A stretch of 64,000 bases of DNA. Origin: Fontisphaera persica (GTDB taxonomy: Bacteria > Verrucomicrobiota > Verrucomicrobiia > Limisphaerales > Fontisphaeraceae). Positions within the stretch are counted from its first letter, which is position 1. Each line of letters starts with the position of its first letter. The notes below the pieces were generated by a model. That model ran no database searches, was not told the DNA's origin, and saw only the letters and a list, made by a program, of their open reading frames with translations. The DNA is taken from positions 2,666,001 to 2,730,000 of the forward strand of contig NZ_CP116615.1 of NCBI RefSeq assembly GCF_024832785.1. The letters run 5' to 3'. Shown here piece after piece: positions 13,801 through 37,768 of this stretch. Made by a program: the position numbers and the translations under genes.

Positions 13801-13949
13801 CAGTTATCGGAGAGAATGGGCCGCACATCGCGGTTGTAATGGATGGTGACGGTGGTGTTATGGCGTGCTGGCGTCGCGCCCCCGAGAGGGCAAGCCAAGA
13901 CACACACCACCGCCGCGCCCCCCGCAATGAAAATGGACGCCCGCCGCAT
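10809..13949 (-). CDS. PSD1-type protein: cytochrome-c-like, DUF1549 and DUF1553 domains
   Basis: 1046 residues with an N-terminal signal (about 1-25). A planctomycete-type cytochrome-c-like domain follows, with heme-binding CFHCH (about residues 51-55). DUF1549 comes next (about 155-360, with [17 protein letters not shown] and [16 protein letters not shown], a second CxxCH), then a jelly-roll-like insert (about 425-590) and DUF1553 (about 745-1010, with [23 protein letters not shown] and [15 protein letters not shown]). Two c-type heme sites imply periplasmic electron transfer. With the DUF1501 gene this is the standard pair of the phylum group; its electron donor and substrate are unknown. 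Confidence 0.85.
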
Positions 13950-14150: not shown

Positions 14151-17100
14151 CTAAAATCTCCAGAAGAGGGAGGCAAAGAAAGTGCGCTCGCGGGGCAATT
14201 CGAGGTAGGTGTTCACCGGGTTCAGGCGGTAATCCTGGTCGGTGAGGTTGAGGACCCCGAGCTTGATTTCGGCCCGTCCGCGTTTGAGGCGGTACCCGGC
14301 AAAGGCGTTGAAATGCCAGAAATCATCGCCTGGGCGGTCCGGGTTGAAGCCCTGATTGTGCTGCTGGGTCCAGATGCCCTCCAGGCGCGAGAAGAAACCG
14401 CAGCGATGGTTGAAGGCGACGAAGAGGTTGAGCTGATGCAGCAGGCCGCGCGTGTGCGCGGCGGCCAGGGGGCTCATGGTTTCAGGAATGACCGGGATGC
14501 GTTGTTGCACGTCGGCGTGACTGAGGCGGTACTGGGCGCCCAGGCCCCATTCCTCGCCCAGGAGCTGATTTACATAGAGGCGCAGGGTGCGTTCGCGGAA
14601 ATCGTATTGCTCGCGCGTGGTCTCCGGCCGGAAGGGCGGCAGGCCGCGGAAAGCGAAGACCCCCAGCTCGCGGTTGACGTCGGAAAAAAGGATTTCGCCG
14701 CTGGCGCCCAGGTAGGTTTGCGTGGGCAGTTTCTGCTCAAAGGCCAGGCCGAAGATTTCGCCGCGGGAGGCGGGGGTAGGGCCGAACAGGGCGTCCGGGA
14801 CGAGGTTGCGGAGGGCCTGGTTGAAGCCGGCCATCTGGGTTGGCTCAAGGACGAAACTTTGCTCGAAACCGAGGCCGCCGAGGTAGCGCGCGTAACCGCC
14901 GCGCAGGGTGGCTCCCGGGTAAGGGGTGAGGATGAAGCCGGCCTTGGGGGAGATGCGGTCCACGGATTCGGTGCGCGCGGAGATGGGCGAGAGGCGGAGG
15001 TTGACGGGGTACTGGAAATGGTCGTAGGCAATGCCGCCGATGAGCGTGAGCGGCCGGGCAATTTCCCAGGAGTGGTAGGCGTAGGCGCCGAAGCGGTTCA
15101 GGTCCACGGACACCGATTGATTGGCGGCAAAGCCGGGGGTGAAGAAGCCGGGAAAGACGGTGGGATTGCGCTGGCGGCTGGTGACGTCGAATTCGCCCAC
15201 CTGGAGGCGCCCGCCGAAGATGGTGTTGTGGCGTTCGCGCTGGAGGATTTGCTGGAGCTCGGCGGTGTAGATTTCCGAGCGTTCATCCAGTTCCTGGACG
15301 AAGCCCACGGGAATGACGCCGGCCAGCGGGGCAAAGGAATAATCCAGAATCATGGTGCGCTGGGCGGGGTTGCTGACGCGCAGGTGGTCGTGCAGGCGCG
15401 TCACGAGCAACAAGGTGTGGTTGCCGGGGCTCCATTCGCGGTGGTAGCCCGCCATGAGCAACGGCTCCTGATTGTCCTTGAGGCGGAAGGTGCGATGGGT
15501 GGTGAAGGGGTCGTAACGTTGCGAGACGTCCCCCATGGCGCCGTCAAAATAAACGGCCTGGAAATAAAGGCCGTCCTGCTGGGTGATTTGCTGCTTCACC
15601 TTGAGCGAGACGGTGAGATGCTCCAAATCGCGATTGGGCGCGCCATAACCGTTTTCGGCGCGGTAAAGTGTTTCCAGGCTCCAGGCGGTGCCGCCGATGA
15701 CGCCATATTGGGCCGCGCCCTGGAGCCAGTCGCCGTTGCTGGCGTATTCGGTGAGGCTGACGAAGCCCACGCGGTCGCGGTCGAAGAGCCGGGAGTATTC
15801 ATTCTGGCTGATTTGCTGGGAAAGCACGCCGGCATTGGCGGGGGAAAGGAGGTTGGCGAGCAGGTACTCGCTGAGCCAGGGCGTTTCGTAGCGCAAGACG
15901 GTGCCGCGCGGGTCGCGCAAGGCATCATAACTGTTGGCGAGAAAGAGGTGGGCCGAGTAGTTGCCGTAGTCGCTGTACACCGCCTTGAAGGCCTCGCGCA
16001 GGGCCACTTCGGTCAGGCCGGCGTCCTGGTAAATGCCGGCGAGGTTGGCGCTGCGGACGGCGCGGTCCTGGTCCAGGAGCAGGCGCGAGCGATAGACGCT
16101 GCGATTGTCATTAAGGCGGATGGATTCCTCCAAATCACGCACGGCGGCGTTGAGCTTGTTTTCCTGCCGGTTGAGGAGCGCGCGATAAAAGACGGGGGTG
16201 GGGTCGCCGGCATCCAGTTTGCGGGCGAGGGTCAATTCATGCGCCGCCTGGCGGGTATCGCGTCCGTGGCTGTAGGCCTTGCCCAGATAACTGCGCAGCA
16301 GCGAGCGTTGCGGCTCGAGGGCGGCGGCGGTTTGCAAATCTTCCAGCCCCGCCGCCGTCTGTCCCTGGCGGATGCGGCACAAGCCGCGGCCCAGCCAGGC
16401 GTTGCCCAAGGCGCCGTCCAAAGCGATGGCCTGCTCGAAACAGACTTGGGCCTGCGGGATGCGCCCGCGCGCCGCATGGGCAAAACCGCGGAGCACGTGC
16501 GCCTGGGCGTTGCGCGGGGAAAGGGCCAGGGCGCGGTCCAGTTGGGTCTCCATCGCGGCAATGCGGCCAAAGCTGAATTCCAGCTCGGCGACGCGCGCCA
16601 CGGCAAAGCCAAATTCCGGCGAGAGCCGGGCGGCCTGCCGGGCCGCGTTAAGCGCGGAGGGCAACTGGGAGCGGGACTGATAATAATACGATTCCGCCAT
16701 CCACTCGGAAGCCGTGGCGGGCGGCGCGGCGGGGGCGGCGCGCACCTCGAATTTTACGGCTTGAATGACGGTGCGCAGAGCGTTGGCCAACGGAGCGGCC
16801 GGGCTGGCTGCCGGCACTTTGGCGAGCAGGGCCTCGGCGGCATCCACGCGCCCGACTGCCAGCGCCAGGCCGGCACGATAGACGCGCTCGGCGTCGGTGG
16901 CCGGTTCGCGATTGGGCGGGTATTTGTCGAGCGCCCCGAGCAAATGGCCCGCCCGGTAATCGGCCAGTGACGCCGCCAGCTCGGGCAGGCCGTCCAATGG
17001 CAGCTCCTTGGGGTCCAGCACGCCAGGGTAGTAAAGGCACCACTGGATGAGGTTGACGGCATTGATGACGGCGGTTTTTTCCGGGCGTTTGCCCTCCTCG

Positions 17101-17633
17101 ATGAGGGATTGTTCGCCGGAGTTGAGGGCCACCTGGCCCACTTCATTGCTGACGTCCACAGAACCATCAAACACGGCCACCAGGACGGTTTCGCCTTCCT
17201 CGGCAGTGGAGAGGAAAAACTCGGTGCCGCGGACGGCGCCGGAGGCCTTTTTGGCGCGAAACTCCAAATCGGAGGGTTTGCCGCGGTCAAACATGAAGAC
17301 GGAGCCATTTTTGAGGTCCAGCAAGGGGCTTTTTTTGTTGGGGGGCGCCTGGATGACCATGGTGGTGACCTCGCTCAGGCGGAGGACGCTCTGGTTGTAC
17401 AGCCGCAGGCTGGCGCGGCTGTCGCGGCCGGTGCGGATGCGGTCGCCGGGATTCAAGACCTGGTTGGGCTGGGCCGGGGTCCAGGTGTCCTGCCCGGCGC
17501 GGGATACTTCGACTTTGCCCTCGATGGTGAGGATGACGGAGGTGTTGGTCGCTTCCTGGGCCAGCACGGCGCCGGCGCAGGTGACGACGACGGCGAGGAA
17601 CAGACTCCGAAACAGCCATGATAGATTGCGCAT
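14151..17633 (-). CDS. FecR domain-TPR-outer-membrane beta-barrel fusion
   Basis: 1160 residues with a signal peptide (about 1-25). A FecR-like beta domain (about 30-190: VILTIEGKVEVSRAG, VLNPGDRIRTGRDSRASLRL, SGAVRGTEFFLST) is followed by tetratricopeptide repeats (about 225-560). The last 560 residues look like an outer-membrane beta-barrel: alternating amphipathic strands, TonB-receptor-like stretches such as ISPKAGFILTPYPGATLRGGYAR and LNLTDQDYRLNP, and a terminal phenylalanine (FWRF) as in BAM-recognised barrels. No plug domain or TonB box is seen, so ordinary TonB-dependent import is unlikely. The start is 26 bases after the giant gene's stop, so the two are probably co-transcribed. It could be a surface anchor, channel or assembly factor for its partner; this is inference. 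Confidence 0.75.
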   Translation of the reverse strand: MRNLSWLFRSLFLAVVVTCAGAVLAQEATNTSVILTIEGKVEVSRAGQDTWTPAQPNQVLNPGDRIRTGRDSRASLRLYNQSVLRLSEVTTMVIQAPPNKKSPLLDLKNGSVFMFDRGKPSDLEFRAKKASGAVRGTEFFLSTAEEGETVLVAVFDGSVDVSNEVGQVALNSGEQSLIEEGKRPEKTAVINAVNLIQWCLYYPGVLDPKELPLDGLPELAASLADYRAGHLLGALDKYPPNREPATDAERVYRAGLALAVGRVDAAEALLAKVPAASPAAPLANALRTVIQAVKFEVRAAPAAPPATASEWMAESYYYQSRSQLPSALNAARQAARLSPEFGFAVARVAELEFSFGRIAAMETQLDRALALSPRNAQAHVLRGFAHAARGRIPQAQVCFEQAIALDGALGNAWLGRGLCRIRQGQTAAGLEDLQTAAALEPQRSLLRSYLGKAYSHGRDTRQAAHELTLARKLDAGDPTPVFYRALLNRQENKLNAAVRDLEESIRLNDNRSVYRSRLLLDQDRAVRSANLAGIYQDAGLTEVALREAFKAVYSDYGNYSAHLFLANSYDALRDPRGTVLRYETPWLSEYLLANLLSPANAGVLSQQISQNEYSRLFDRDRVGFVSLTEYASNGDWLQGAAQYGVIGGTAWSLETLYRAENGYGAPNRDLEHLTVSLKVKQQITQQDGLYFQAVYFDGAMGDVSQRYDPFTTHRTFRLKDNQEPLLMAGYHREWSPGNHTLLLVTRLHDHLRVSNPAQRTMILDYSFAPLAGVIPVGFVQELDERSEIYTAELQQILQRERHNTIFGGRLQVGEFDVTSRQRNPTVFPGFFTPGFAANQSVSVDLNRFGAYAYHSWEIARPLTLIGGIAYDHFQYPVNLRLSPISARTESVDRISPKAGFILTPYPGATLRGGYARYLGGLGFEQSFVLEPTQMAGFNQALRNLVPDALFGPTPASRGEIFGLAFEQKLPTQTYLGASGEILFSDVNRELGVFAFRGLPPFRPETTREQYDFRERTLRLYVNQLLGEEWGLGAQYRLSHADVQQRIPVIPETMSPLAAAHTRGLLHQLNLFVAFNHRCGFFSRLEGIWTQQHNQGFNPDRPGDDFWHFNAFAGYRLKRGRAEIKLGVLNLTDQDYRLNPVNTYLELPRERTFFASLFWRF

Positions 17634-17659
17634 AAGGAGGACAACTAGGGCATGGTGGG

Positions 17660-20600
17660 TTATTCAAGGCCAACGGCGCGGTAGAATCTGCGGCCAGTGG
17701 CGGCCGCCGGGTCCGCAAACTGCACCTGGGAGCCGGTGGCCAGGTTGGTGCTGATGGGCACCCAGGTGGAAAGGTTGGTGGAAGCTTGAATGACGAACAT
17801 CTGGCCGGCCTTGCCGGTGATGTTCAAGGTGAACACGCCGTTGGAGTAACTGGTGGCGCCGCCGGTGGCAAACCGCAGCGGGGCCTCGACGGTCAAGGTG
17901 GCCACGGCGCTGGTGACGCTGGCGGCCGGATTGGAGACCACGACACGGAAGGAGCCGGCATCGGCGGCCTGGACATTGGTGAGCGCCAAGGTGGCATTGG
18001 TGGCGGTGGCCAGGGGGAGCCAGTTGGTTTGCCCGGTGCGCAACTGATACCACCGGTAAGCCAGCGGGGCCGTGCCGGAGGCGGCCACGCTGAAGGTGGC
18101 GCTGCCGCCGGAGGCCACGCTTTGGTTGACGGGCTGCGCAGTAATCGCAGGCGGCAGGGCCAGCAAATAATTCATGACGATATGGCCCTGGGCGCCGTTG
18201 ACGCCGTCCACGGCCACCAGGTAGGACTGGCCGGCCTGGGCATTTATGCGGACCAGGCTGCGCACGCCGTCCGGGGCGCCATTGTCATCGCTGGCAATTA
18301 ATTGGAGGGTCAGCAGGGATTCCCCCTGATAGACGGCCAGCACGGTGTCAATGTCGCTGCCGATGGTGTCAATGACCAGCACGCCATTGGTCAGCGTGTC
18401 AATGCGGAACCAGCGCGAGGCGCCGCCCTGGATGCCGCCATGCTGGGGTTCGTTAGGTTCGGTGGTGGCGCCATAGTTGTCCAGCACCTGCGTGCCGGAG
18501 CTGCCCGCCGAGACGGAGGCGAAGAACTGGCGTTGCGGGCCGCCGAGGGTCTGGCCGCCGGGGCCGGTGCCGCGGAGCATGTCATCGAATTTGTCATGCG
18601 TGCGGACGTCTTCGAGCACGACGGTTTGATTGCTCTGCACCATCTGGCCCACTTCGAGCACAAACACCCGCGACTGCGCGCGCCGGTCCGGGTTGGCGCC
18701 ATAGACCATGACGTAATACGGGCCAATCAGGGCGCGGGTGAGCGCCGGGATTTGGTAGGTGGCGGCGGTGGCGCCGGCGATGGGCTGGCCGCGGAAGAAC
18801 CATTGATAAGTGGCGGCATTCTGGGCGGTGACCTGCAGGTTGACCGGCGAATTTTCGGGCACGGTGCGGGAGCGCGGCTGGTCGGTGATGATGGGGTAGT
18901 CGGTCACGCCCACCAACAAATTCCAGCTCAGGAGGATGGTGCCGGTGGCGCCTTCCACGCCATCCACCAGGAAGTGGTAGGCATTGCCTTCGCTGACCGG
19001 GAAGGTGATGCGCTCATTGAGGTTGCCCGCCGAGTCTTCATCCCGCTCCACCACCATGAGCGAGTTCAAGGTGTTCCCCTGCAGGACGATAAGCAATGTA
19101 TCGAAGGTGCTGCCGAGGGTGCTGACGGTCACCACGCCGTTGGTGGGGGCCACCCAGGTGGCCCAGACGGAGCGGCCGCCGCGTTTGAAGCCGGTGGGCA
19201 ACTGGTCATCCTGCAAGCCGGTGGCCTCAGTGTTTTGTCCGCGCACGATGCCGGCAGCCACGGCGGGCAGGCTCACGGAGTTGGTGAAACGGTCCCCCAG
19301 GGCCACCAGCGGCGCGTCCAGCAACACTTCCGCCGGCAGGCTTTCGGCGACGCCATAAGGAGTGCTGGCCACCACGCTGTAGGCGCCACATTGAGCCAGT
19401 TGGATGTTGGTGAGCGTCAGCGTAGCATTGGTGGCACCGGGCAGATTCACGCCATTGAGCCGCCACTGGAAATAGAGCGGCCAGGCGCCGCGCGCGGTGA
19501 CGGTGAGCTGATGGGAGCCGCCGGCGGTAACCACCCTGCCCTGCGGCTGCCCCACAATGATGGGCGCGCCTCGCGGGGCGAATACGGCCAGATTCGGCCG
19601 CCAGTCGCCGCCCACGCGGGTGAAGTCGCCGCCGACAATGACGACATTGGTCACGGCAGCCAGGGCCTGCACGCCCAGCGCCTGGGGCGGCACCGTCAAA
19701 TCGGGATTCCATTCCGTGACGGCGCCGGAGACCGCATCCAGGGCCCCCAGATGATTGCGATGGGAGGCGCCCAGGCGATTAAACCAACCGCCAACATCCA
19801 ACACATTTTGCCGGAGGCCCAAGGCCCGCACCACGGCCACATCGCCGGTGGCGCTTTGCGCCGGCACGTTGAATTCCGGCAAGGCCAGCCCGCTGGCATC
19901 GAGCGCCGCCAGCCGCTGGCGGGCGGCGCCGCCGATTTGCGAGAAGGAGCCACCCACATACAGGAGCGGCGCGGGAGTCTCCCGGAGGGCCAGCGCCATG
20001 ACGGGGGCGTTGGGCGCGGGGTTCCAGGCATCGAGCGCGCCGCTGGCGTCCACCCGCGCCAGGAAGGGGCGCAGCGTGCCGTTGATGGAATTGAACTCAC
20101 CGGCCAGGTAAATTTGCGCGCCGTTGGTCGTGGCCCGCAAGGCCAGCACGGGGCCGTCGGGCGCCGGATTCCAATCCAGCAAGGCGGCAGTGTCGGCATC
20201 CACCGCGCCGGCATAAGTCCGCGTCGCGCCCGCCAGGTTGGAGAAGTCGCCGCCCACATAGAGGCGTTTGCCCGCCAAGGCCAGCGCCCGGACGGCGCCA
20301 TTGGCGGCGGCATCCCAAGGCGTGACTTCTCCGTTGAGGATGGAAATGGCGGCGAGGCGGCTGCGCTCCGCGCCGCCGGCGGCGGTGAATTCGCCGCCCA
20401 GATACAGGTTGGTCCCGCTCACCAGCAAGGCGCGCACAGGGCCATTGGCGCCCGGATTCCAACTGGTGGTCTGGCCGGTGGCCAGGCGCAAAGCGGCGAT
20501 GTTGCTGCGAAGGACGCCGCCGGCCACGGTGAACTGGCCGCCGGCAAACAAGGTGTTGTCCTGCAAGGCCAGTGCGCGCACGGGGCCATTGGCGGGTGCC

Positions 20601-23600
20601 TGCCAATTCAGCAAGGCCGCGGTGACGGGATGCACCGCCGCCATGCGCATGCGGGTCTGGCCGCCCATCGTCAAAAACTGACCGCCTGCGTAAAGGGCAT
20701 CCGGCCCCGCCGCCAGGGAGCGCACCACGCCGCCCGCGCCGGGATTCCATGTCCGCAGCGCGCCGTCCAGACGGGCAAAAGCCGCCAGATGCCGGTAAGT
20801 GATGCCGCCGCTGGTGAAGGAGAAGTCACCGCCGGCAAAGAGGGTTTCACCCAGCGTGGCCAGGGCATAAACGCGGGCGTTGGCGCCTGCGGGCAGGGGG
20901 GCCTGCCAGCCCAGGACCTCGCGAGTTTCAGTGTCAAGAAGGGCGATTTTGGGCCGGCTCAGGGTTACGTTGTTATTGGTCAAGGTGTCAAATTCGCCGG
21001 CGACAAACAGGCGGTGGTCATCCACCAGGAAGGCATGGATGGTGCGGTCCACGCCGATGACAAAATCGGTGCGCACCTGGCCATCGCTGGGGTCCAGCTT
21101 GGCCAATCGCGCCCGCGGCAGCCCACCGATGGTTTGGAATTCACCGCCGACATATAATTTGCTGTCCACTTGGGCCAGGGCGCGGACGGGTCCATCGGGG
21201 TTGGGGGCAAAGGGCCGGAGCGCGCCGTCCTGGGTGCGGATGGCCGCCAAATTATTGCGTGGGAGTCCCCCGACCTGGGTGAACTCGCCGCCGACGTAAA
21301 GGATTTGTTCGTGCAGCAGCAGAGCGCGCACAGGCCCATTGACTCCCACCACCCAGGCGGGATTGACGGATTTATCCGGGAGCAGATGCACGAGGTTGGT
21401 GCGTGGGAGCCCGCCGACGCGCACGAATTCTCCGCCAATAAACCATCCCCCGCGGCCGTCAGGTACCACGGCGTAAATGGCTGCGCCTTCCACGCGCGGC
21501 CAGACGGTGTCCGGCCGGGCCGAGGTGGCATCCAAGGCCACGCCCAGACCTGAGTTGGGCCCGACCATGCGGAAATTGCCGCCGAGGTAGAGGGTGCCGG
21601 CGTTTTCGACCACGGCATGCACTGGACCATCAGGCACCCAGAAATCATCACGCGGCACGCTGGCGGGTGGGGCGAGGACGGCGGAGACGGTGAGTTGAGC
21701 GGTGGCCTGGGCCTGGCCGGCGCGGTTGCTCACCACCACCGTATAGGCACCCATTTCCCAGGGGGAAACGTTGGTAATCACCAAGGTGGGTCCCGTCGCC
21801 CCCGCCAGCGGAGTTTGATAACGATACCATTGGTAGCGCAGCGGCGGTGTGCCCACCGCCGTCACGGAGAACACCGCAGAGGTGCCGGGCGGCAGAATGA
21901 CGGACTCCGGCGGCGCGGTAATGACCGGCGGCACGAACACCCGCACCAAGGTGGCCTCGCTGTCCTCATAGCCATAGGCGTTGCTTACCCGAACAAAATA
22001 CAGACCACTGTTGGCCGGTGAGGCATTGGGAATGAGCAGCGTGGCGCTGTTGGCGCCCCAGAGCGGGAAGCCATTGAAGAACCATTGATAACGCAACGGG
22101 GGTGTGCCGAGTGCGCGGATGGTCAGTTCAATGGTTTGGCCTCGGACGACGTCCAACTCCTCCACCTGGCTGACAATGGCCGGCTCCTCCGCCTGTCCCA
22201 GGATTTGAACCTCGAGTGGCATGCTGGTGGTGCTGGCTCCCAAGTCATCTACCACGCGCGCGGTGAACACATATTCATCGCCAGCCGGCAGGTTGGTCAG
22301 CGTCAAGGCTGCCGTGAACCGATTGGTGGCCAAGGGATTCACGCTCGTGCCCACCAATTCCTCGTTGAGGAAGAAGTCCACCTGTTTGACCACGCCGTCG
22401 TCCAGTGTTGAGGCCACCAGCGGGATGATGCCGGGCGCGGTGAAGCGGGCCAGATTGGTGTTGAGGGTGAGCTGCACCGCGGGCGGGACATTGAATACGA
22501 GGCTCAGGCGCACATCGCCGCCGGCGCCCGCGAAGCCCTTGACGGTGATGTAATAAGTGGTCCCCGCGGTGACCTCGAGGGTGAGCAAACTGGCCCCCAG
22601 GCCGGCGCCGCCCACCAGGGTCATGATTTCCGCCCCGCCGTCATCGTCCAGCGCCAGGAGTTGCAGGTTTTGCAGAGTGGTGCCGGTGTACACTTCCAGC
22701 AAGGTGTCAAAGCTGCTGCCCAAGGTGCTGATGAGCACCGTGCCGCTGGCGGGCGCCGTCCAACGGTACCAGAGGGAATTCCCCGCCAGGCCGCCCCACG
22801 GGTCAGGCTCGCCCGGTTCGAGGGTGGCGCTGCGATTATCATCCGTGACCGACACCGCCGGGCCGGTGAGCGGGCGCGCGTTGGCAAACAAGTCATGGTT
22901 AGCGGCCGGCGGGCGCACGGTCACCCGCACCGGCTGGGTCTCAGCGGCCACGCCTGCGGCATCCACCGCCCGGGCGCGGAAGAAGTATTCACCCGGCGGC
23001 ACATTGGTCAGGGTGATTTGGCCGGTAAAGGGCGTGCCGGGCGGCTGGTTGGTGGCGGTGCCCACCAGGATGTTGCCGCGGTAGAATTCCATCCGCGCCA
23101 CGCCATCGCTGTCCTGGGCCTGGGCGCGCAATAGAACCGGCCCCGGAGCCGTCAACACTTCGCCCGCCAGCGGCGAGAGCCAGGTGACCGTGGGCGGCAT
23201 GTTCATGCTGACCAGGAGCGAGTAGAATCCCCCCGCGCCATTGTAACCGTCCACGGCGATGTAATAGGTCTGGTTGCGCCGGGCGGTGAACCACAGGCGG
23301 CTGGTCAGGACGTCCGCTTGCGAGGGGTCATCGTCATTGGAGGCCACCTCCTCCAACCCCATCAAGGAAGCTCCTGTGTACACGGCCACCACGGTGTCGA
23401 AGGTGCTGTCGGCGGTGGTGACGGTGACCAGCCCATCCTGCGGCGCAGTCCAGGCAAACCACACCGAGCGCCCGCCGGGCACGCCCGCGTGGTAAGGCTC
23501 GCCCGGCTCGAAGGTGGCGCCGGCGCTGTTGCCAGAGTAGGCAGCGGAGAGGCCGGTCAAGAGGGCGCGATTGGCAAAATCATCATTGGTGGGAGCGGGC

Positions 23601-26600: not shown

Positions 26601-29600
26601 AAAATGGCCTGAACCTGCCGCGGCTGATTCATCACCACCTGCGTAACCGCGTTGGTGGAGCTGATGTCTCCCTCCCAGCGGAGGAAGCTCCAGCCGGGCG
26701 CGGGCATGGCAGACAAGGTGACCACCGTATTGGAAGGATACGGCCCGGGGGCCGGGCTGGCCGAGATGGCGCCACCGCCGGGGGTGCTGAACGACAGGGG
26801 GAATGTCCAGCCAATTTCCAGGCGATTGGTCACGACTGCCGTCCAGGCGGTGCGGTTGCTGTTGTAGGCGATGGCTTTGAGAATCACCGGCGGGCGCACC
26901 TCGAAGGGTTCGACGTATAGACGGCCGTCGTCAGGATGCAAGTTGTTGGTCGAGTAATAAATGCTGCCATTGGGGAAAGCCGTGGTGAGGAAAACCAGGA
27001 CCGGTGAGTTGTCCGGGAAGAGATGCCGGCCATCCGGTCTGAAGACGCCGTTGATTTCAATGTAAGGGTCCTGCTCAATCACTGTCAGATAGGCGGGGAA
27101 ACTATCCACGCTGCCTGAAGAGTTGCTGACGCGGACAGAATAATAACCTTCGTGGGCCGGTGAGACGTTGGTGATGGTCAGGGTGGCGTTGGTGGCACCT
27201 GCAATGGGAGCCGCGCCAAAGAACCATTGATAGGTGGGCGTAGGCAAAGCTTCCGCCACCACGGTAAAGGTTGCCGTGGACCCCGCCCGCGCCACGGTAT
27301 CCTCCGGATGCTGCAGAATAGTGGGGGGATGATCTTGTTGGATTTCCAGATAGAGTGGCTCGGAGGTGACAAAGCCCAGAGCATTGCCCACTTCAACCAC
27401 ATAATATTGCGCATGGAACGGGGTCAAATCGTTGAGAACCAACCAGGCATTGGTGGCATCGGGAATGGGAACGACATGCCCATACCAGTTATACCATTGA
27501 TAAGACAATGGGCGCTGACCAATGGCTTGGGCCGAGAAAACGGCGGTGCCCCCCACCCTGCCCTTGCGCTCCAACACCTGCGGCAACAAGAACGGCGGGC
27601 CGGAGCCAAGCAGCGCCAGACTATGCCCGAAACCCGCGGCCAATGCCACCACGTTGGTCAGGCCGGGCGGCACCAGCAGCTCGCCATGGCCGCTCTCGCC
27701 CCATACCATCACTGTGCCGTCAGGGCGCAAAGCCACGCTGTGATTTCCACCCGCCGCGATGGCCACGGCATTGGTCAAAACGGGCGGGATGTTGAGCTGG
27801 CCCCGGTCATTGGCCCCCCAACCGATGACCTTTCCATCCATTAACAAAGCCAGACTGTGGTTGGCCCCAGCAGAGATGGCCACCACGTTGCTCAGCCCCA
27901 CCGGCGGACTGGCCTGGCCGTAAGTATTGTCTCCCCACCCCACCACCGTGCCATCGGCCCGCAAAGCCAGGCTGAAGTCTTCACCCGCCGCAATGGCCAC
28001 GATGTTGGTCGCCTGGGGAGGGACGTTACATTGTCCCGATTCATTGGCCCCCCAAGCCACCACTGTCCCATCTTCCAAGAGCGCCAGATTGTGCGCAGCG
28101 TTGGCAGAGACGGCTACCACGTTCATCAATCCCGGGGGCACATTGAGTTGATTTAATGAATTATTGCCCCACGCCACGACGGTTCCCTGATTCAACAAAG
28201 CCAGATTGTGGGCATACCCCGCGGAAACTTGGATGACATTGGTCAGCCAGGGTGGAACCGTGCCTTGGAAATAAGAATTGTCCCCCCAGGCCACCACCGA
28301 GCCGTCACGCTTCAAGGCCAGACTATGATGCTCTCCACAAGCAATGCCGATGATATTGCTCAGCCCCGCCGGCACATTAGTCTGGCCAAAGGCATTATAT
28401 CCCCAAGCCACCACCTGCGCTGGTGCGGTAACAGGTGGTGACTCCAATTGAAGCGCCATGACCGGGCTGGTGACTAAGCCCCGGCTGTTTTGGACCACGA
28501 CCTGGTAGGCGCCGGCATTTTCCGGCCGCACATTGTTCACCACCAGCCAGGGTTGATTGGCGCCGGGGATGGGCACGCCATTAAACAGCCATTGATAAGT
28601 CAGCGGCCACTCGCCACTGGCAGCAACCCTAAACACTACCGGCTGTCCCACATTGGCCCGCCGCGCAGGCAGGACAGGCGCCAACTGGGGCGGGCCTTCG
28701 CCCAGCACCGCGATGCTGTGTTTGCCGCCTCCCGCAACGGCCACCACGTTGCTGAAGCCAAACGGAACAGAAGTTTGGCCCAAATTATTTCTTCCCCAAG
28801 CCACCACGGTGCCATCCGACTTCACGGCCAAGCTATGATGGAACCCGCAGGCAATGGCCACCGCGTTGGACAATCCCGGCGGCACATTGGTTTGGCCATA
28901 ATGGTTATCTCCCCATCCCACCACCGTGCCATCCGCGCGCAAGGCCAGACTGTGGACCCATCCGGCGGCCACTGCCACCACATTGCTCAACCAAGTGGGG
29001 ACCGCGACTTGGCCGGAATTATTAGCCCCCCACGCAACCACCCTGCCGTCAGCCTTAAGAGCCAAGGTGTGATATGCCCCCGCCGCAATGGCCACCACAT
29101 TACTCAAGCCCGCAGGAACATCAAGTTGACCATCGGAATTGCCGCCCCATGCAATAACGGTGCCGTCTTCGCGCAAGGCGACACTATGCCTTGCGCCAGC
29201 AGCTATGGCCATCACACTGCTCAGACCCAAAGGAATATCAATCTGTGACCAATAATTATATCCCCAACCCTGCACAGTTCCATTATGGAGCAGGGCCAGC
29301 GCATGGTCCGCGCCTGCCGCAATGGCCACTACATTGGAAAGGGTCGCAGGGACGGTCATCGGTGCGTATATCTCATCACCACCGGTCCAGTATTCTCCCC
29401 ATGCCTTCAAGGTTCCATCCCTGCGCAAGGCCAGATTGAAGTATTCACCCGCCGCCACGGCGGTGACGTCATGCAGTCCTGGCGGCAACAAATCCAAGGC
29501 TCTGGGCTTGTTCCCCCACACCACCACATTGGCTGGCGGCGGGGGCGAAACAATGACCAAATGGGCCACCGCACTGGTCACCACTCCCCAAGGATTGCTC

Positions 29601-32600
29601 ACCACCACGTCATAGGCCCCGGTGTTCAAGTTTTGGACGTTGGGCAGGAAAAACCAAGGTTGAGTAGCGCCCGTCAACGGCAGGCCATTCAACCTCCACT
29701 GGTAGGTCATGGGGCGCTGGCCTGTGCCAGCGGCATAAAACACGGCCCGGCCCCCTTCCTGGACCCGGGTCTGGGCAACCTGCGGTGCCAGCCGGGGCGG
29801 ACAATTCCCCATCAAGGCTACACTGTAATTATCTCCCCCGCTTATCGCGACCACCTGAGACAAACCCGCTGGCATATTGGTGGCACTAACGCTGTAATTG
29901 TATTCCCCCCATCCCACCAGCGTGCCATCAGCCTGGAGTGCCAGACTGTGAGAATAACCGGCGGCTATGGCCACGACATTACTGAGACCGGCAGGCACAC
30001 TGGTGGCGTCCAAGTCATTGTCCCCCCAAGCCACCACGGTGCCGCCAGAACGCAGCGCCAGGCAATGAGCGCCGCCCGACGCGATGGCCACCACATTAGT
30101 GAGACCAGGTGGCACAAACACCTGGTCGCAACAGTTGTTGCCCCACACCACGACGGTGCCGTCCGCGCGCAGGGCCATGTTGTGCTCATGGCCGGCCGCA
30201 ATAGCGACAATATCCCGTAAACCCTCAGGTGCATAACCCTGGCCTTCCCAATTGTAACCCCAAGCCACCACGGTACCATCGGCCCTCAAGGCCAAGCTAT
30301 GCATTGCACCCGCGCTGATGGCCACGACGTTGCTGAGGCCCGGCGGGGGCACCGCTTGGCCGTAGCCATCACCGCCCCACCCCACCACGGTGCCGTCCTT
30401 GCGCAGGGCCAGACTGTGGTACTCCCCCGCCGCAATGGCCACCACGTTGGACAACCCTGGCGGCACATTGGTTTGGCCACTACCATTGTGGCCCCAAGCC
30501 ACCACCGTACCGTCCGCCCTCAATCCCAGGCAGTGATCATAACCCCCGGCAAGGGCGATAAGATTAGTCAAGCCCGGCGGCACATTGGCCACTCCCCAAT
30601 TATTATTGCCCCAAACTATGACCTGAGAGGTGATGGGTGGCGGGGGTGGCGTTTCCAATTGGAGCGTCATGACCGGGCTGGTGACTGAGCCCCGGCTGTT
30701 TTGAACCACCACCTGATAAGCCCCGGCATTTTCCGGCCGCACATTGGTCACCACCAGCCAGGGTTGATTGGCGCCGGGGATGGGCACGCCATTAAACCGC
30801 CATTGATAAGTCAGCGGCCATGCTCCCACCGCTTGGATAGTGAAGACGGCGTTTTCACCTGGCTGGACAAGTCTTCTTCCTACTTGCGGTGTCACCCGTG
30901 GCGGGCCATGACCGATAAGGGCCAAACCAAAATACGTACCGCCTGCCACTGCCACCAAGTTGCTAAGATTGGACGGAATTTCTGGCGGAACAAAACCCCA
31001 CGTCACCAGCGTGCCATCGGCACGCAAGGCGAAGGTCTGATCCAAGCCCGCCGCCACGGAAACGACGTTGCTTAAGCCGGGTGGCACGTTGGTTTGCCCT
31101 AAGGAGTTGCCCCCCCAAGCCACCACTGTGCCATCCGCTTTCAGGGCCACACTGTGCCGCCAGCCAGCGGCAATCCCCACCACGTTGCTCAAACCAGGCG
31201 GCACCATGAGCTGGTCTTCCGAGTTGGCCCCCCATGCCATGACTATGCCATCCGCCGTGAGTGCCAAGCTGTGGTAATCCCCGGCGGCAATGGCCACGAT
31301 ATTGCTCCAGCCCGGTGGGGCTTCGACGCCGTTACCCCAAGCCACCAGAGTGCCATCTGCCTTCAGGGCCACGGAGTGGGCATGTCCGGCGGCAATGGCC
31401 ACGGCGTTGGTCAGGTCGGCGGGGACCTCCAATTGTCCCAAGTCATTGTCTCCCCATGCCAGCACCTTGCCATCGGCCATGAGTGCCAAAGCGTGCCGTT
31501 CGCCGGCGGCGACGGCCACAGCATTATTAGCCTCCCACGGAATGTTCAATTGGCCGTCGGTGTCTCGCCCCCACCCCACCACGCGGCCGTCCCCACGGAC
31601 CGCCAGGCAGTAGTCAAAATGAGTGGCCATGGAAATGACGTTGGTCAAATCCGGCAACACCTCAGCGCGCTGGCCCCAATTTGGCCCCAAAGGCACCACT
31701 GGCGGCGGAGGAAAGACCCACAAGTTTGCCACCTGGCTGGTCACCACGCCAAAGGCATTGCTTACCACCACATAATACGGGCCGCTCTGATGAAAACCGG
31801 GACTGATTATTAATAAATTGGTCGCGTTGGCCCCAGCAATCGGAGAGCCTTGGAAATACCACTGATAATACAAAGGTTCCTGCCCGTAAGCGACCACGTA
31901 AAACTCGGCGAACTTGCCCACGGTCACCATCGTGTCGAGCGGCGGGCGGAAGATTTCAGGCGGCCAGGGAGGAGGCCCCACATCCAAGGTGGCCACCTGG
32001 CTGGTGACGGCACCAGCGGCGTTGCTGACGACGACGAAGTAAGAACCGGCCACGGAGGAGTTAACGGCCGGTATGGAAAAGACGGGATTGGTCCCCGTTT
32101 GAACCATTGTGCCTTGGAAATACCAATGGTAATAAAGCGGAGGATCACCGGTGGCCACCACTTGGAATTGCGCGGGCAGGCCCTCCGGCACGGTTTGCGA
32201 GGCGGGCTGTTGGGTGATGACAGGCGGCGCCACCGAAGGCGCCTGGGGCACTAGGGGATGCGCAGGGCCGGAGTAAACTACTGGAGAATATAAATAACCG
32301 TAATCTTCGGGGGGGCCACTGTTAAAAAGCCCATCCGTCCATGGCCGCGGATTCACTCCGCCCCCCGGCAGAGGCAACGCCGGCTCGAACCAAAAGGCTT
32401 TATGCGGAAACATGAACGGATAAGAGGGCTGCCATAATCCATTGGTGAAAAAATAGGGCTGGAATTGCTGTGCCAGCTCATTGAAAATCCAGATTTTATC
32501 ACCTTCCATGGCGGGAAATCCAGTGAAGTCGCGAGTAGGAAACAAGGGAGAAAGAACGCATTTCATCTCCGGCACCGCATTGGTCAGATGGCCCACAGGA

Positions 32601-34366
32601 AGCTCGCCTAGCATTCGCAATAGGAATGGCCCGCCCAAAGGATTGTAGAAATAGAAGCCCTCCCCGGGCTTCAGCAACCGCGCTGCGGGAACAAAGCTCT
32701 CGTCCAACCATCCATACAACGTGGAATAGTTATATGTCTCCAACCGGTTGCTGTTAATCAAGACGACCCGCGCATTTTCTGGCGGCCCCCAAAAAGCGCT
32801 GTTGAGGGAGTTATCGCTGGTCCTAAAAGGTTGCGCGATCAAATTGTAGCCTAGTTGCAACTCATACCCCCCACAGCCGAAAACGTTGGTGGCAAAGATT
32901 GTCGTCCCCAAGGGCCCTCGTGCGGCAATCCGATAAAAATGCCAAAATCCAGGAATTACATTAGTATCGTTAACTGTGTGAATTTGCCCCGATAGGCCCA
33001 AGGCATTGGTAACCAAGCTAAAAGCCCCTTGGGGAATATGGCTTCTTTCCACCATCAATTCCCCGGAATCGGAAGAAGCTTGGACAGTAATAACCATCGT
33101 ATTCCCCGTGAGGGTGAAGGAGAGCAACCGCGGGGGGGCGACGACGGAGACGGTGGCCACCTGGCTGGTGATGGCGCCGTAGAGGTTGCTGACCACGCAA
33201 TAATAATTTCCCCGATGGGTGGGGGCAGACTGGAGGTACTGGAGGTAGTCCTGGTTGGCCAAAGGGATGGGAAGCCCATCCTTGTACCATTGGAAAAACA
33301 GCGGATGCGTGCCGTCGGCAAAGCAGGTGATGACAATCTCCTTGCCGGGCGGGCCTTCCCACGATTCGGCATTTTGGGTGATATGGGGCACCAGCCCCTG
33401 CACGAACAGGTTAATTTCCCCCCACGGCCAGCCGTTCAATTCCAAATAATAAGCCCGGTCGCTGGGCGAAAAATCGGCCTGAAGGAAATCCCCTGAGATA
33501 TAACCCCGAATCAGGGTAACTTGGTAATCCTGCGGCCAGGGATAGAGCGGCTCCAACTGGACTTCCAGCCGGCCATTCAAAGCGATGGTCTGGTAACTCT
33601 CAATGAAGCCGTAGTCTGTGATTGCATTAGTGCCGGTGAGATAATAGCGAACTACGGAATTGCTCCCCAAGGTCAGGGTGGCCTGGTCGAGGAGCAATTT
33701 GCCCGAGTGGATTTCCAGCGAGCCCTCATTCTGAACAGTCATCAAGGGCGTCCCAAAATCCTCCGGGTTCAACACCACCGTGCCCGTGCTGGTGAGAAGG
33801 ATGGTGCCGGTGTTAACAAGGCGCACATTGAGATTGCTGCTGATGATGGGTTGGGAGACGTTGATGTCGAAATAACCGCAGTTGGTGATGACGGCGCCGG
33901 TGTGGAGAAACAGGGGCGCTTCTCCGGCCCAGCGGCCGTAGCTCCGCACTTCCAGGGTCCAATCTTGCAGGACGACGGTGTTGGTGTTCTCGATGGTTGC
34001 ATTGGCCATGGCCACCAGGCGCCCACCGCCGCCGCCCAGGGTGCCGGCCTGCCAGTAATAGTAATTTTCGACTACCAGCGTATTGGCCCCACTAATGGTG
34101 CCGCCATGCTGATACAAGTAACCCACCATGAACTGGTTGGTGGAGGCTGGGAGCACGATGTTACCATCATTGACAGTGGCTTCGTCTCCCGGCCCGGGCA
34201 CGCCGGTGGGATTCCAGTTGGTGGCCACATTCCAAGGGCCGCTGCCTCCCCGCCAGACATACGAAGCACCCTGGAGGGGAGTGAGGTGGGGCATCAGCCA
34301 AATCATCACCCCCGCCACAGTGGCCCACAAATGCCACTGGGGCTTCAAGAAGTTCTTGGCTTTCAT
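17660..34366 (-). CDS. Giant secreted Ig/RCC1/PPC/delta-60 repeat protein (5568 residues)
   Basis: Signal peptide about 1-34. Approximate order follows. Beta-helix-like N-terminus (35-327, starting YVWRGGSGPWNVATNW); Ig (328-412); an unassigned part (415-711); two Ig (712-885). RCC1 array 1 (899-1154), Ig, array 2 (1246-1521), Ig, array 3 (1609-1889), Ig, array 4 (1983-2256). Two Ig (2256-2428); chitobiase-C-like (2431-2516); three InlB-type B-repeats (2518-2730); Ig (2733-2821); an SBBP-like propeller (2821-3216). Alternating Ig-like Big and PPC-like domains (3219-4056), with a lectin-like insert at 3313-3491; two Ig; 14 delta-60 repeats (4239-4929); Ig, PPC, Ig, PPC, Ig (4933-5493). The C-terminal module (about 5496-5568, QASTNLSTWVPI) is typical of secreted Verrucomicrobia proteins. 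No catalytic motif, LPxTG or PEP-CTERM is visible. A surface adhesin or binding scaffold is most likely. The FecR-TPR-barrel gene follows in the same unit. Confidence 0.85.
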   Translation of the reverse strand: MKAKNFLKPQWHLWATVAGVMIWLMPHLTPLQGASYVWRGGSGPWNVATNWNPTGVPGPGDEATVNDGNIVLPASTNQFMVGYLYQHGGTISGANTLVVENYYYWQAGTLGGGGGRLVAMANATIENTNTVVLQDWTLEVRSYGRWAGEAPLFLHTGAVITNCGYFDINVSQPIISSNLNVRLVNTGTILLTSTGTVVLNPEDFGTPLMTVQNEGSLEIHSGKLLLDQATLTLGSNSVVRYYLTGTNAITDYGFIESYQTIALNGRLEVQLEPLYPWPQDYQVTLIRGYISGDFLQADFSPSDRAYYLELNGWPWGEINLFVQGLVPHITQNAESWEGPPGKEIVITCFADGTHPLFFQWYKDGLPIPLANQDYLQYLQSAPTHRGNYYCVVSNLYGAITSQVATVSVVAPPRLLSFTLTGNTMVITVQASSDSGELMVERSHIPQGAFSLVTNALGLSGQIHTVNDTNVIPGFWHFYRIAARGPLGTTIFATNVFGCGGYELQLGYNLIAQPFRTSDNSLNSAFWGPPENARVVLINSNRLETYNYSTLYGWLDESFVPAARLLKPGEGFYFYNPLGGPFLLRMLGELPVGHLTNAVPEMKCVLSPLFPTRDFTGFPAMEGDKIWIFNELAQQFQPYFFTNGLWQPSYPFMFPHKAFWFEPALPLPGGGVNPRPWTDGLFNSGPPEDYGYLYSPVVYSGPAHPLVPQAPSVAPPVITQQPASQTVPEGLPAQFQVVATGDPPLYYHWYFQGTMVQTGTNPVFSIPAVNSSVAGSYFVVVSNAAGAVTSQVATLDVGPPPWPPEIFRPPLDTMVTVGKFAEFYVVAYGQEPLYYQWYFQGSPIAGANATNLLIISPGFHQSGPYYVVVSNAFGVVTSQVANLWVFPPPPVVPLGPNWGQRAEVLPDLTNVISMATHFDYCLAVRGDGRVVGWGRDTDGQLNIPWEANNAVAVAAGERHALALMADGKVLAWGDNDLGQLEVPADLTNAVAIAAGHAHSVALKADGTLVAWGNGVEAPPGWSNIVAIAAGDYHSLALTADGIVMAWGANSEDQLMVPPGLSNVVGIAAGWRHSVALKADGTVVAWGGNSLGQTNVPPGLSNVVSVAAGLDQTFALRADGTLVTWGFVPPEIPSNLSNLVAVAGGTYFGLALIGHGPPRVTPQVGRRLVQPGENAVFTIQAVGAWPLTYQWRFNGVPIPGANQPWLVVTNVRPENAGAYQVVVQNSRGSVTSPVMTLQLETPPPPPITSQVIVWGNNNWGVANVPPGLTNLIALAGGYDHCLGLRADGTVVAWGHNGSGQTNVPPGLSNVVAIAAGEYHSLALRKDGTVVGWGGDGYGQAVPPPGLSNVVAISAGAMHSLALRADGTVVAWGYNWEGQGYAPEGLRDIVAIAAGHEHNMALRADGTVVVWGNNCCDQVFVPPGLTNVVAIASGGAHCLALRSGGTVVAWGDNDLDATSVPAGLSNVVAIAAGYSHSLALQADGTLVGWGEYNYSVSATNMPAGLSQVVAISGGDNYSVALMGNCPPRLAPQVAQTRVQEGGRAVFYAAGTGQRPMTYQWRLNGLPLTGATQPWFFLPNVQNLNTGAYDVVVSNPWGVVTSAVAHLVIVSPPPPANVVVWGNKPRALDLLPPGLHDVTAVAAGEYFNLALRRDGTLKAWGEYWTGGDEIYAPMTVPATLSNVVAIAAGADHALALLHNGTVQGWGYNYWSQIDIPLGLSSVMAIAAGARHSVALREDGTVIAWGGNSDGQLDVPAGLSNVVAIAAGAYHTLALKADGRVVAWGANNSGQVAVPTWLSNVVAVAAGWVHSLALRADGTVVGWGDNHYGQTNVPPGLSNAVAIACGFHHSLAVKSDGTVVAWGRNNLGQTSVPFGFSNVVAVAGGGKHSIAVLGEGPPQLAPVLPARRANVGQPVVFRVAASGEWPLTYQWLFNGVPIPGANQPWLVVNNVRPENAGAYQVVVQNSRGLVTSPVMALQLESPPVTAPAQVVAWGYNAFGQTNVPAGLSNIIGIACGEHHSLALKRDGSVVAWGDNSYFQGTVPPWLTNVIQVSAGYAHNLALLNQGTVVAWGNNSLNQLNVPPGLMNVVAVSANAAHNLALLEDGTVVAWGANESGQCNVPPQATNIVAIAAGEDFSLALRADGTVVGWGDNTYGQASPPVGLSNVVAISAGANHSLALLMDGKVIGWGANDRGQLNIPPVLTNAVAIAAGGNHSVALRPDGTVMVWGESGHGELLVPPGLTNVVALAAGFGHSLALLGSGPPFLLPQVLERKGRVGGTAVFSAQAIGQRPLSYQWYNWYGHVVPIPDATNAWLVLNDLTPFHAQYYVVEVGNALGFVTSEPLYLEIQQDHPPTILQHPEDTVARAGSTATFTVVAEALPTPTYQWFFGAAPIAGATNATLTITNVSPAHEGYYSVRVSNSSGSVDSFPAYLTVIEQDPYIEINGVFRPDGRHLFPDNSPVLVFLTTAFPNGSIYYSTNNLHPDDGRLYVEPFEVRPPVILKAIAYNSNRTAWTAVVTNRLEIGWTFPLSFSTPGGGAISASPAPGPYPSNTVVTLSAMPAPGWSFLRWEGDISSTNAVTQVVMNQPRQVQAIFGTTLPITIQGSGVVQLDPPLRLFPYGSRVRLSALPNAGYYFQQWNLPTGTPNVSPLDLVLTNPGPAIMAVFAPLPPNTYALNTLVVGGGNVQRAPQANYYTNGTPVLLTALPDPGYLFGGWSGDLVGTNATAGLVMNGNRTITAHFFEASRLAIIAQPRSQVVLAGSPVLLSVKALGTNLHYQWLHDDLALEGAQSADLYLPSVNANQGGRYKVIVYNDLGESLESEVAFLTVNRAANPQTQAVLFLGSSADEAALAVAVQSNAVYVGGVMEVGAGEAFGLCVPANFTTNTSPTWQTWWPGRPGADGFRGVLATPAGPVFAGYNEPLLSAARAAKGVLVQLGANNGLEIFSRRTPLNGAFDYNGAEYLHAITRSQEPEGEFWYVTGQGQSGAESYGQMFVAKVTPGGSELWVSSELKQNTPAETLGVISTPGFAVDLPVDYSVGNAVVVMGGAVYVAGRCDIEGISYATLWKFSRNGRLEWRMLGSPGEYHGLATMNGILFAVGAADNFWSGQDFLVEAWNKEGWIIWSTILDRAEEDDVLTGVVAQSGRLYACGYTYGGTAGGADAVVLRLDPQEGSLLSTLLQGYHQDDFAYALTMDGQFLYVAGETSSGGAGGADAVLSRLFVPDLVPNTPPVVAFISPADGAEFVAPATVTLEVTATDPDGGIHSVEFFQNDQFLDHLVEPYYRLTLSNLWAGEYVFSAKVTDHQGASVDAVPVRIVVNNYAATHKLDFEGVNLLPSGVSTPFALSNYLAGFQARVINLTPASTVQVVRATQVYPGLLKPSSGSNLLEQVSASRGPVTNRFEFQQVLDSVRFTRVTVLAGAAGANHPRWRARAFNRFGMELSAVGENALFSPQDIPARTFTLNGPDIASVVFESDAQGLGRFSSLLLDDLVLNVALSSNSAPLVVITEPAPKSQFDGPANVTVRVTAEDFDGQVSSVNLWLNDSPAGWAMNSQAGRFEASFVLSNLVVGTYRLLATAYDNEGASRESPPVSFSVVAPAPTNDDFANRALLTGLSAAYSGNSAGATFEPGEPYHAGVPGGRSVWFAWTAPQDGLVTVTTADSTFDTVVAVYTGASLMGLEEVASNDDDPSQADVLTSRLWFTARRNQTYYIAVDGYNGAGGFYSLLVSMNMPPTVTWLSPLAGEVLTAPGPVLLRAQAQDSDGVARMEFYRGNILVGTATNQPPGTPFTGQITLTNVPPGEYFFRARAVDAAGVAAETQPVRVTVRPPAANHDLFANARPLTGPAVSVTDDNRSATLEPGEPDPWGGLAGNSLWYRWTAPASGTVLISTLGSSFDTLLEVYTGTTLQNLQLLALDDDGGAEIMTLVGGAGLGASLLTLEVTAGTTYYITVKGFAGAGGDVRLSLVFNVPPAVQLTLNTNLARFTAPGIIPLVASTLDDGVVKQVDFFLNEELVGTSVNPLATNRFTAALTLTNLPAGDEYVFTARVVDDLGASTTSMPLEVQILGQAEEPAIVSQVEELDVVRGQTIELTIRALGTPPLRYQWFFNGFPLWGANSATLLIPNASPANSGLYFVRVSNAYGYEDSEATLVRVFVPPVITAPPESVILPPGTSAVFSVTAVGTPPLRYQWYRYQTPLAGATGPTLVITNVSPWEMGAYTVVVSNRAGQAQATAQLTVSAVLAPPASVPRDDFWVPDGPVHAVVENAGTLYLGGNFRMVGPNSGLGVALDATSARPDTVWPRVEGAAIYAVVPDGRGGWFIGGEFVRVGGLPRTNLVHLLPDKSVNPAWVVGVNGPVRALLLHEQILYVGGEFTQVGGLPRNNLAAIRTQDGALRPFAPNPDGPVRALAQVDSKLYVGGEFQTIGGLPRARLAKLDPSDGQVRTDFVIGVDRTIHAFLVDDHRLFVAGEFDTLTNNNVTLSRPKIALLDTETREVLGWQAPLPAGANARVYALATLGETLFAGGDFSFTSGGITYRHLAAFARLDGALRTWNPGAGGVVRSLAAGPDALYAGGQFLTMGGQTRMRMAAVHPVTAALLNWQAPANGPVRALALQDNTLFAGGQFTVAGGVLRSNIAALRLATGQTTSWNPGANGPVRALLVSGTNLYLGGEFTAAGGAERSRLAAISILNGEVTPWDAAANGAVRALALAGKRLYVGGDFSNLAGATRTYAGAVDADTAALLDWNPAPDGPVLALRATTNGAQIYLAGEFNSINGTLRPFLARVDASGALDAWNPAPNAPVMALALRETPAPLLYVGGSFSQIGGAARQRLAALDASGLALPEFNVPAQSATGDVAVVRALGLRQNVLDVGGWFNRLGASHRNHLGALDAVSGAVTEWNPDLTVPPQALGVQALAAVTNVVIVGGDFTRVGGDWRPNLAVFAPRGAPIIVGQPQGRVVTAGGSHQLTVTARGAWPLYFQWRLNGVNLPGATNATLTLTNIQLAQCGAYSVVASTPYGVAESLPAEVLLDAPLVALGDRFTNSVSLPAVAAGIVRGQNTEATGLQDDQLPTGFKRGGRSVWATWVAPTNGVVTVSTLGSTFDTLLIVLQGNTLNSLMVVERDEDSAGNLNERITFPVSEGNAYHFLVDGVEGATGTILLSWNLLVGVTDYPIITDQPRSRTVPENSPVNLQVTAQNAATYQWFFRGQPIAGATAATYQIPALTRALIGPYYVMVYGANPDRRAQSRVFVLEVGQMVQSNQTVVLEDVRTHDKFDDMLRGTGPGGQTLGGPQRQFFASVSAGSSGTQVLDNYGATTEPNEPQHGGIQGGASRWFRIDTLTNGVLVIDTIGSDIDTVLAVYQGESLLTLQLIASDDNGAPDGVRSLVRINAQAGQSYLVAVDGVNGAQGHIVMNYLLALPPAITAQPVNQSVASGGSATFSVAASGTAPLAYRWYQLRTGQTNWLPLATATNATLALTNVQAADAGSFRVVVSNPAASVTSAVATLTVEAPLRFATGGATSYSNGVFTLNITGKAGQMFVIQASTNLSTWVPISTNLATGSQVQFADPAAATGRRFYRAVGLE
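19580..21650 (-). repeat. Delta-60 repeat array (14 units) inside the giant gene
   Basis: Fourteen copies of a 45-60 residue unit recur, each with a core such as LYVGGEF, LFAGGQF or LYLGGEF followed by a small loop and AALDxxTG-like strand. Fourteen units would suit two seven-bladed propellers or one long array. The units differ enough in DNA sequence that recent tandem expansion is not evident. Confidence 0.75.
27600..28420 (-). repeat. RCC1-type seven-repeat array 4
   Basis: Seven units of about 38 residues, each with a core like LSNVVAISAGANHSLAL and a VVxWGxN turn (residues about 1983-2256 of the giant). Seven units predict one complete seven-bladed propeller. Confidence 0.8.
28441..28612 (-). 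repeat. Ig-linker DNA duplication, copy 2
   Basis: This stretch, encoding the Ig-like domain with GANQPWLVVNNVRPENAG, is nearly identical in DNA to 30655-30830, with roughly one difference per ten bases by eye. The flanking RCC1 arrays are much more divergent, so the linker was copied or gene-converted recently. Confidence 0.7.
28700..29540 (-). repeat. RCC1-type seven-repeat array 3
   Basis: Seven RCC1-like units (residues about 1609-1889 of the giant); the first is longer, with an insert containing GGDEIYAPMTV. Again a complete seven-bladed propeller is predicted. Confidence 0.8.
29805..30630 (-). repeat. RCC1-type seven-repeat array 2
   Basis: Seven RCC1-like units (residues about 1246-1521 of the giant). 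One unit carries two adjacent cysteines (WGNNCCDQ), unusual in a secreted repeat. Confidence 0.8.
30655..30830 (-). repeat. Ig-linker DNA duplication, copy 1
   Basis: Partner of 28441-28612. It encodes the Ig-like domain with GANQPWLVVTNVRPENAG between RCC1 arrays 1 and 2. Confidence 0.7.
30905..31670 (-). repeat. RCC1-type seven-repeat array 1
   Basis: Seven RCC1-like units (residues about 899-1154 of the giant). The fourth is short, with the turn WGNGVEAPPGWSN replacing the usual spacing. A single seven-bladed propeller is predicted. Confidence 0.8.
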
Positions 34367-35742: not shown

Positions 35743-35756
35743 GTTGATACGGGAGT

Positions 35757-37766: not shown

Positions 37767-37768
37767 GT

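Follow-up and report, generated by a model that had tools for sequence, protein, structure and literature searches.

A giant Ig/RCC1 repeat protein and an adjacent NsrA-like FecR-TPR-barrel protein of Fontisphaera persica look like a sensing unit

Analysis of a 64,000-nt stretch of the Fontisphaera persica genome (hereafter the window; GCF_024832785.1, NZ_CP116615.1, positions 2,666,001-2,730,000 of the forward strand) revealed a giant repeat protein encoded next to a protein that joins a FecR domain, TPRs and an outer-membrane barrel, hereafter the receptor. In our reading this pair probably serves sensing and not export, because the receptor is of a kind that relays outside signals to enzymes within the cell and because the tail of the giant matches a module that recurs beside such receptors. 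We consider it probable, from homology and gene linkage, that the protein is an NsrA-like receptor signaling through its FecR domain to a CHASE2 protein and that the giant is a long version of a PPC/Ig partner. The features of the pair, in window positions, are as follows.

17660-34366, minus strand: giant Ig/RCC1/propeller-repeat protein (5568 aa, ATG start)
17678-19315, minus strand: barrel-linked module of the giant, about aa 5018-5563 (module profile; conservation relative to the same-genus giant)
17634-17659, minus strand: intergenic gap between giant and receptor (26 nt)
14151-17633, minus strand: FecR-TPR-barrel protein, NsrA-like outer-membrane receptor (1160 aa, ATG start)
17556-17633, minus strand: signal-peptide region of the receptor, about aa 1-26 (helix 2-20 in the model, and sequence; cleavage site putative)
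17070-17540, minus strand: FecR domain of the receptor, aa 32-188 in the model and 64-159 by Pfam (Pfam and model)
15846-16985, minus strand: TPR/helical domain of the receptor, aa 217-596 (Pfam and model)
14157-15773, minus strand: 22-strand C-terminal barrel of the receptor, TonB-dependent-transporter type, aa 621-1159 (Pfam, model, Foldseek/VIA)

Both open reading frames lie where the initial annotation had placed them, with the giant encoded 26 bases upstream of the receptor gene, and neither a consensus promoter nor a terminator turned up in simple scans of the gap. The sole other examined genome of the genus (G011) retains the pair, with a gap of 27 and an upstream frame of at least 4956 aa within the fetched stretch; the two receptors are 90% identical. 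The immediate neighbors of the receptor in the window are the giant and PSCyt1-PSD1, and no signaling gene was found beside it there. On the same strand, 3′ of the receptor, positions 9299-13949 hold PSCyt1-PSCyt2-PSD1 and DUF1501 genes, which were rejected as conserved partners; among 80 tabulated loci (81 loci minus L083, whose barrel was misplaced in gene calling), relatives occurred at the window and same-genus loci only. Upstream of the giant, also on the same strand, positions 34579-41746 encode a GH10 protein, an arabinofuranosidase and a multidomain Malectin/esterase/arabinofuranosidase protein.

The initial annotation had described the receptor as FecR, TPRs and a plugless barrel in one chain, an architecture borne out by Pfam and by a structure model, plugless being meant at that level. 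Pfam matches included FecR at residues 64-159 (E 6.4e-12), TPRs near 376-478 and TonB_dep_Rec_b-barrel at 720-919 (E 4.8e-9), with no plug family among matches at E<=0.01 and no STN domain among the Pfam matches. The model, built from 76 sequences (mean pLDDT 89.4, pTM 0.86), consists in order of a signal helix (2-20), a FecR beta fold (32-188), helices (217-596) and strands (621-1159), which number 22 when counted by hand from the strand listing, and the TPR helices run straight into the first barrel strand. Foldseek and VIA-align showed that the C-terminal part resembles the TonB-dependent transporters OprC, PirA, FecA and BtuB, among others; VIA-align barely covered the FecR part, and its rows bear no weight against other folds for that part. 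At the level of Pfam and predicted secondary-structure order, the conclusion that the barrel lacks a plug holds, and the conserved residues ~575-620 could enter the barrel.

The receptor family was found in 74 of the 146 genomes of the order (E<=1e-20) and in 9 of 387 genomes of a phylum-wide draw (E<=1e-40), and is therefore concentrated in the order. Named homologues, taken from the best 80 of 333 relatives, were mostly Verrucomicrobia, Limisphaerales and Pedosphaera, with a few Spartobacteria/Chthoniobacterales bins and some bins labeled Akkermansia or Pontiellaceae. The window genome carries one full-length FecR-TPR-barrel copy; another FecR protein, some 307 residues long, is encoded at G000:C1:2483406-2484146.

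Examination of the genes around the receptor homologues revealed mainly signaling functions. Neighbors, defined as genes of at least 120 aa within three genes of the barrel gene, were compiled from 80 regions with upstream room and 80 named loci, giving 131 unique loci. CHASE2 proteins were encoded at 77 of these, with none within three genes at the other 54. The remaining classes, called by Pfam on ten representatives and extended by phmmer similarity, comprised kinase-like proteins (22 loci, a count that overlaps that of CHASE2 because some kinase calls are CHASE2-kinase fusions), Fis-type response regulators (13), sigma-70-like proteins (13) and Ig-type proteins (47). At least one signaling neighbor was present at 92 of the 131 loci, and neither a signaling nor an Ig neighbor at 28, many loci being cut by contig ends. 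At 54 of 124 unique loci the gene immediately downstream of the barrel gene encoded CHASE2, compared to 3 of 439 genes from rank 5 onward, a background that includes repeat loci. In a set of 52 full-length CHASE2 proteins, one being the window genome's own and the other 51 encoded at barrel loci, 29 carried a cyclase, 16 a Pkinase and nine a HisKA domain. Eight loci that blast grouping had assigned an upstream CHASE2 gene proved mixed; three of the eight, L107, L111 and L112, encode Ser/Thr kinases with WD40 repeats.

These neighbors bear on two other readings of the barrel. The first, which the initial annotation had proposed, is that the barrel exports the giant or anchors it at the outer membrane, as the 26-nt gap and a large barrel without a recognized plug might suggest. 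Exporters that combine TPRs with a barrel do exist, namely BcsC and PgaA. The matches of the receptor to them are weak and at the TPR level (the BcsC model gave E 0.049 and 11.4 bits, compared to a cut-off of 858), and no whole-protein match to the BcsC/PgaA family was found. Against export or anchoring, the genome has one full-length barrel for about 29 Ig-bearing open frames, the recurrent neighbors of the family are signaling genes, and most barrel homologues lack a giant neighbor, so that this part of the initial annotation is not upheld and we regard it as improbable. The second reading takes the barrel for a nutrient-uptake pore serving the xylan/arabinan enzymes suggested by the GH10 and arabinofuranosidase genes just upstream of the giant. 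It would fit the TonB-dependent-transporter fold, but the absence of a plug family and the association of the family with signaling genes make it very unlikely.

The reading of the receptor as a sensor gained from its relationship to a rhizobial protein. A tblastn comparison of the receptor with plasmids gave FecR-region matches in Sinorhizobium and Methylocystis. A Methylocystis plasmid encodes a 1221-aa FecR/TPR protein with a CHASE2 cyclase directly after it, and on pSymB of S. meliloti 1021 the gene for a ~1200-aa FecR/TPR protein overlaps by 1 nt the gene for a 649-aa CHASE2 cyclase. The receptor profile aligned with the pSymB protein over 997 columns (hhalign, 99.7% probability, E 1.4e-25); the signal came mainly from the FecR and TPR parts, which are in the same order in both proteins, and the barrel part aligned poorly. 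Because of its replicon, size, domains and adjoining CHASE2 cyclase, in a record without gene names, we take the pSymB protein to be, very probably, NsrA encoded beside CyaK. NsrA is described as an outer-membrane receptor that works with the CHASE2 adenylate cyclases CyaK and CyaD1/D2 (PMC7529298, PMC13001267), with its barrel at residues 600-1200, CyaK as its cognate cyclase and, in S. meliloti, a foreign protein as the molecule sensed (PMC7529298). CyaK is listed as SMb20776, and CyaD1 and CyaD2 under chromosomal SMc locus tags (PMC5498481); in the account of PMC7529298, NsrA also serves CyaD1/D2, which are encoded elsewhere in the genome.

The window genome contains two CHASE2 cyclase genes, both away from the receptor. 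One of them, L116 (G000:C1:3348155-3350299), lies about 0.66 Mb from the receptor gene and encodes 715 aa with CHASE2 and Guanylate_cyc domains; its best match outside the genus is the CHASE2 cyclase encoded 5 nt upstream of the barrel gene of G050, and sequence similarity thus places L116 with the barrel-linked kind of CHASE2 cyclase. Cyclases matching L116 at E<=1e-50 were present in 48 of the 74 genomes with the barrel and in none of the 72 without it; the corresponding counts were 61 and seven at E<=1e-40 and 71 and 28 at E<=1e-20, several thresholds being given because they were picked post hoc from the list. Since no signaling gene adjoins the window receptor, pairing with a cyclase would be in trans, resting on homology and co-occurrence, and the 715-aa cyclase is the likely partner.

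The giant begins with a hydrophobic, signal-like stretch, in agreement with its earlier description as signal-bearing, and contains RCC1 repeats, many Ig domains, InlB-like repeats, Big_7 and DUF5122 propeller repeats by Pfam. Ig_3 alone has 90 matches in about 29 open frames of the genome (hand count), up to 3968 aa in length besides the giant, and because Ig proteins are so common here, similarity to the giant by itself proves little. We therefore replaced a generic test for Ig proteins based on giant similarity with a module profile of 601 positions, built by aligning nine same-strand Ig proteins that adjoin the receptor in other genomes.

The best place for this profile in the window genome was the C-terminus of the giant (positions 50-597 of 601, 336 bits, E 2.3e-100), the only near-full-length match in the genome (548 of 601 positions); the runner-up scored 136 bits over 139 positions. 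Within the giant, the match at residues 5019-5563 (~545 aa) is the last one, and its layout is PPC-like, Ig, linker, PPC-like, Ig and C-terminal region. The module region is also the part of the giant most conserved within the genus, identity between the two giants being 84-88% over the final ~800 residues and roughly 51-86% in the part preceding them. In this comparison one copy is truncated N-terminally by the limit of the fetched stretch, and two bins of 250 residues near 751-1250 contain too little alignment for a score. The module has persisted next to the receptor while the remainder of the giant is variable, which suggests constraint on the module itself. A similar stretch of ~80 residues ending near RFYR occurs at window positions 17660-17900 and at the C-termini of many large extracellular-type proteins of the order, many Ig proteins among them; it has the look of a common C-terminal domain and may be a sorting signal, and the C-terminus of the giant gave zero NCBIfam matches. 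Very large frames also occur in related genomes, including one of 8489 residues (G001:C3) that carries the module in a genome where the search found no barrel, and one of 9708 residues (G056:C113).

Linkage of the module to the receptor was apparent from both gene position and genome content. With a module call requiring a score of at least 190 and a span of at least 380 positions, the gene immediately upstream carried the module at 24 of 115 unique barrel loci, compared to 1 of 431 background genes (ranks 4-12), and at 15 of 106 after removal of the nine loci used to build the profile. It was within three upstream genes at 34 loci, 22 of which had it on the receptor's strand and 22 of which had CHASE2 nearby. 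At E<=1e-50, 65 of the 74 barrel-bearing genomes contained the module, as did 4 of the 72 genomes that lack the barrel (57 of 66 and 4 of 72 when the eight profile-building genomes were removed), with Fisher p-values that overstate independence because the genomes are related by descent; change counts on a tree (module 20, CHASE2 26, sigma 4) are descriptive only, having no shuffled controls. Seen from the module, 26 of the first 65 strong places listed, the last of them the window's own, fell no more than 3 kb from a barrel, and 34 were on other contigs, which in some cases reflects short contigs. Other proteins also occur upstream of the barrel. At L066, L074, L089 and L094 a recurrent protein of roughly 450-530 aa is encoded directly upstream; at L074, L089 and L094 the module gene follows one or two genes beyond it, and at L066, where the locus is cut, no module gene was seen. 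The L089 copy has no Pfam match. At L057 the place of the Ig protein is taken by a protein at least 2072 aa long that matches Lamin Tail, Calx-beta and, weakly, CotH.

Together, the match in the giant's tail and the enrichment of the module beside the barrel argue that the pairing of giant and receptor is real, as the initial annotation had supposed in treating them as one unit, and the rank test and the module search overturned an earlier view in which CHASE2 alone mattered and the giant was irrelevant. The same observations count against the two being chance neighbors with no shared role, a reading that could draw on the giant-sized pair being kept, outside the window genome, only in the sole other examined genome of the genus and on the window lineage having no CHASE2 gene beside the barrel, and that we hold to be most unlikely. 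Judged by the refuting condition of the initial annotation, the outcome is mixed: among the homologues, giants next to the barrel gene are rare and module-bearing Ig proteins in that place are common.

We propose that the 22-strand barrel of the receptor would face outside and that the TPR and FecR domains would hang in the periplasm, where FecR most likely informs a CHASE2 protein of the inner membrane about the state of the barrel. The cytoplasmic part of that CHASE2 protein would then make cyclic nucleotide, as reported for NsrA/CyaK. The giant would be a secreted PPC/Ig partner with an N-terminal extension of ~5000 residues, linked to the receptor through its C-terminal module, which could serve as a ligand or co-receptor at the surface or be the cargo that is sensed. 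Architecture, homology, linkages and co-occurrence are the observed basis of this proposal, and we infer from them the topology, the contacts of FecR with CHASE2 and of the module with the barrel, and the direction of signaling.

A more specific form of this proposal, which we put forward tentatively, is that the receptor senses a protein of its own cell, the giant's module binding the barrel and FecR-CHASE2 reporting export and assembly of the giant. The initial annotation had likewise suggested that the FecR-barrel protein reports on assembly; the reporting part agrees with the CHASE2, kinase, sigma and response-regulator neighbors and with the NsrA precedent, and assembly as the signal is a possibility. 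Rather unlikely, in our estimate, is a shared pathway without contact, in which the receptor senses an outside molecule and the Ig protein or giant is a co-encoded output such as an adhesin. Many module genes run divergently from the receptor gene or lie one gene away from it rather than sharing a transcript with it, and the foreign protein sensed in S. meliloti (PMC7529298) fits such a pathway, but retention of the module sequence next to the receptor, in giants that otherwise vary, argues against it.

An NsrA-like sensing unit with a secreted partner would have several consequences. What CHASE2 domains recognize is reported as unknown (PMC5192318, PMC10581220), and an order-wide FecR-TPR-barrel family with a recurrent secreted partner module provides candidate ligands for the CHASE2 route. 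It would also suggest a role for the giant Ig/RCC1 protein, whose function is otherwise a guess, and extend NsrA-type sensing from rhizobia to Verrucomicrobiota. If self-sensing were true, CHASE2 signaling would be driven by a self-encoded surface ligand, and the ~5000-residue repeat part of the giant would be an extension into the surroundings.

In a search limited to open-license PMC papers, no title or displayed abstract among the papers returned described this arrangement in Verrucomicrobia, and comparison with known systems revealed partial likenesses to several. The receptor shares the 22-strand barrel of TonB-dependent transporters and lacks their N-terminal plug as judged by Pfam and the model. 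Like the FecA-FecR-FecI system, it places FecR and a 22-strand barrel of this type in one route, with sigma neighbors at some loci; in contrast to that system, FecR and barrel are fused, plug and STN were not found and no membrane anti-sigma protein was seen, nor does the window have a separate plug/STN barrel with an adjoining ECF sigma gene. The BiofilmReg operon of Burkholderia contaminans likewise co-encodes a FecR-domain protein with a CHASE2 protein, there a LysM-FecR protein, described without a barrel, and a CHASE2 sensor kinase, the system comprising a histidine kinase and a response regulator (PMC5192318). Campylobacterota clusters contain a CHASE2 adenylate cyclase, a FecR outer-membrane protein, a TPR protein and a phosphodiesterase (PMC9239204); FecR, TPR and CHASE2 cyclase are thus co-encoded as in the window family, but there FecR and TPR are separate and accompanied by the phosphodiesterase, whereas here they form a fused chain with an Ig partner and a phosphodiesterase was not noted. 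The NsrA system belongs to another phylum, and the loci of the order differ from it in their recurrent PPC/Ig partner module and in also using Ser/Thr kinase and histidine kinase outputs and sigma-factor neighbors. The window genome does possess a CHASE2 cyclase, as NsrA-type systems do, with its gene elsewhere rather than adjacent. Shared by the two systems are a single chain of ~1200 aa with FecR, TPRs and a C-terminal barrel, and a gene that adjoins a CHASE2 cyclase, in S. meliloti and at many loci of the order.
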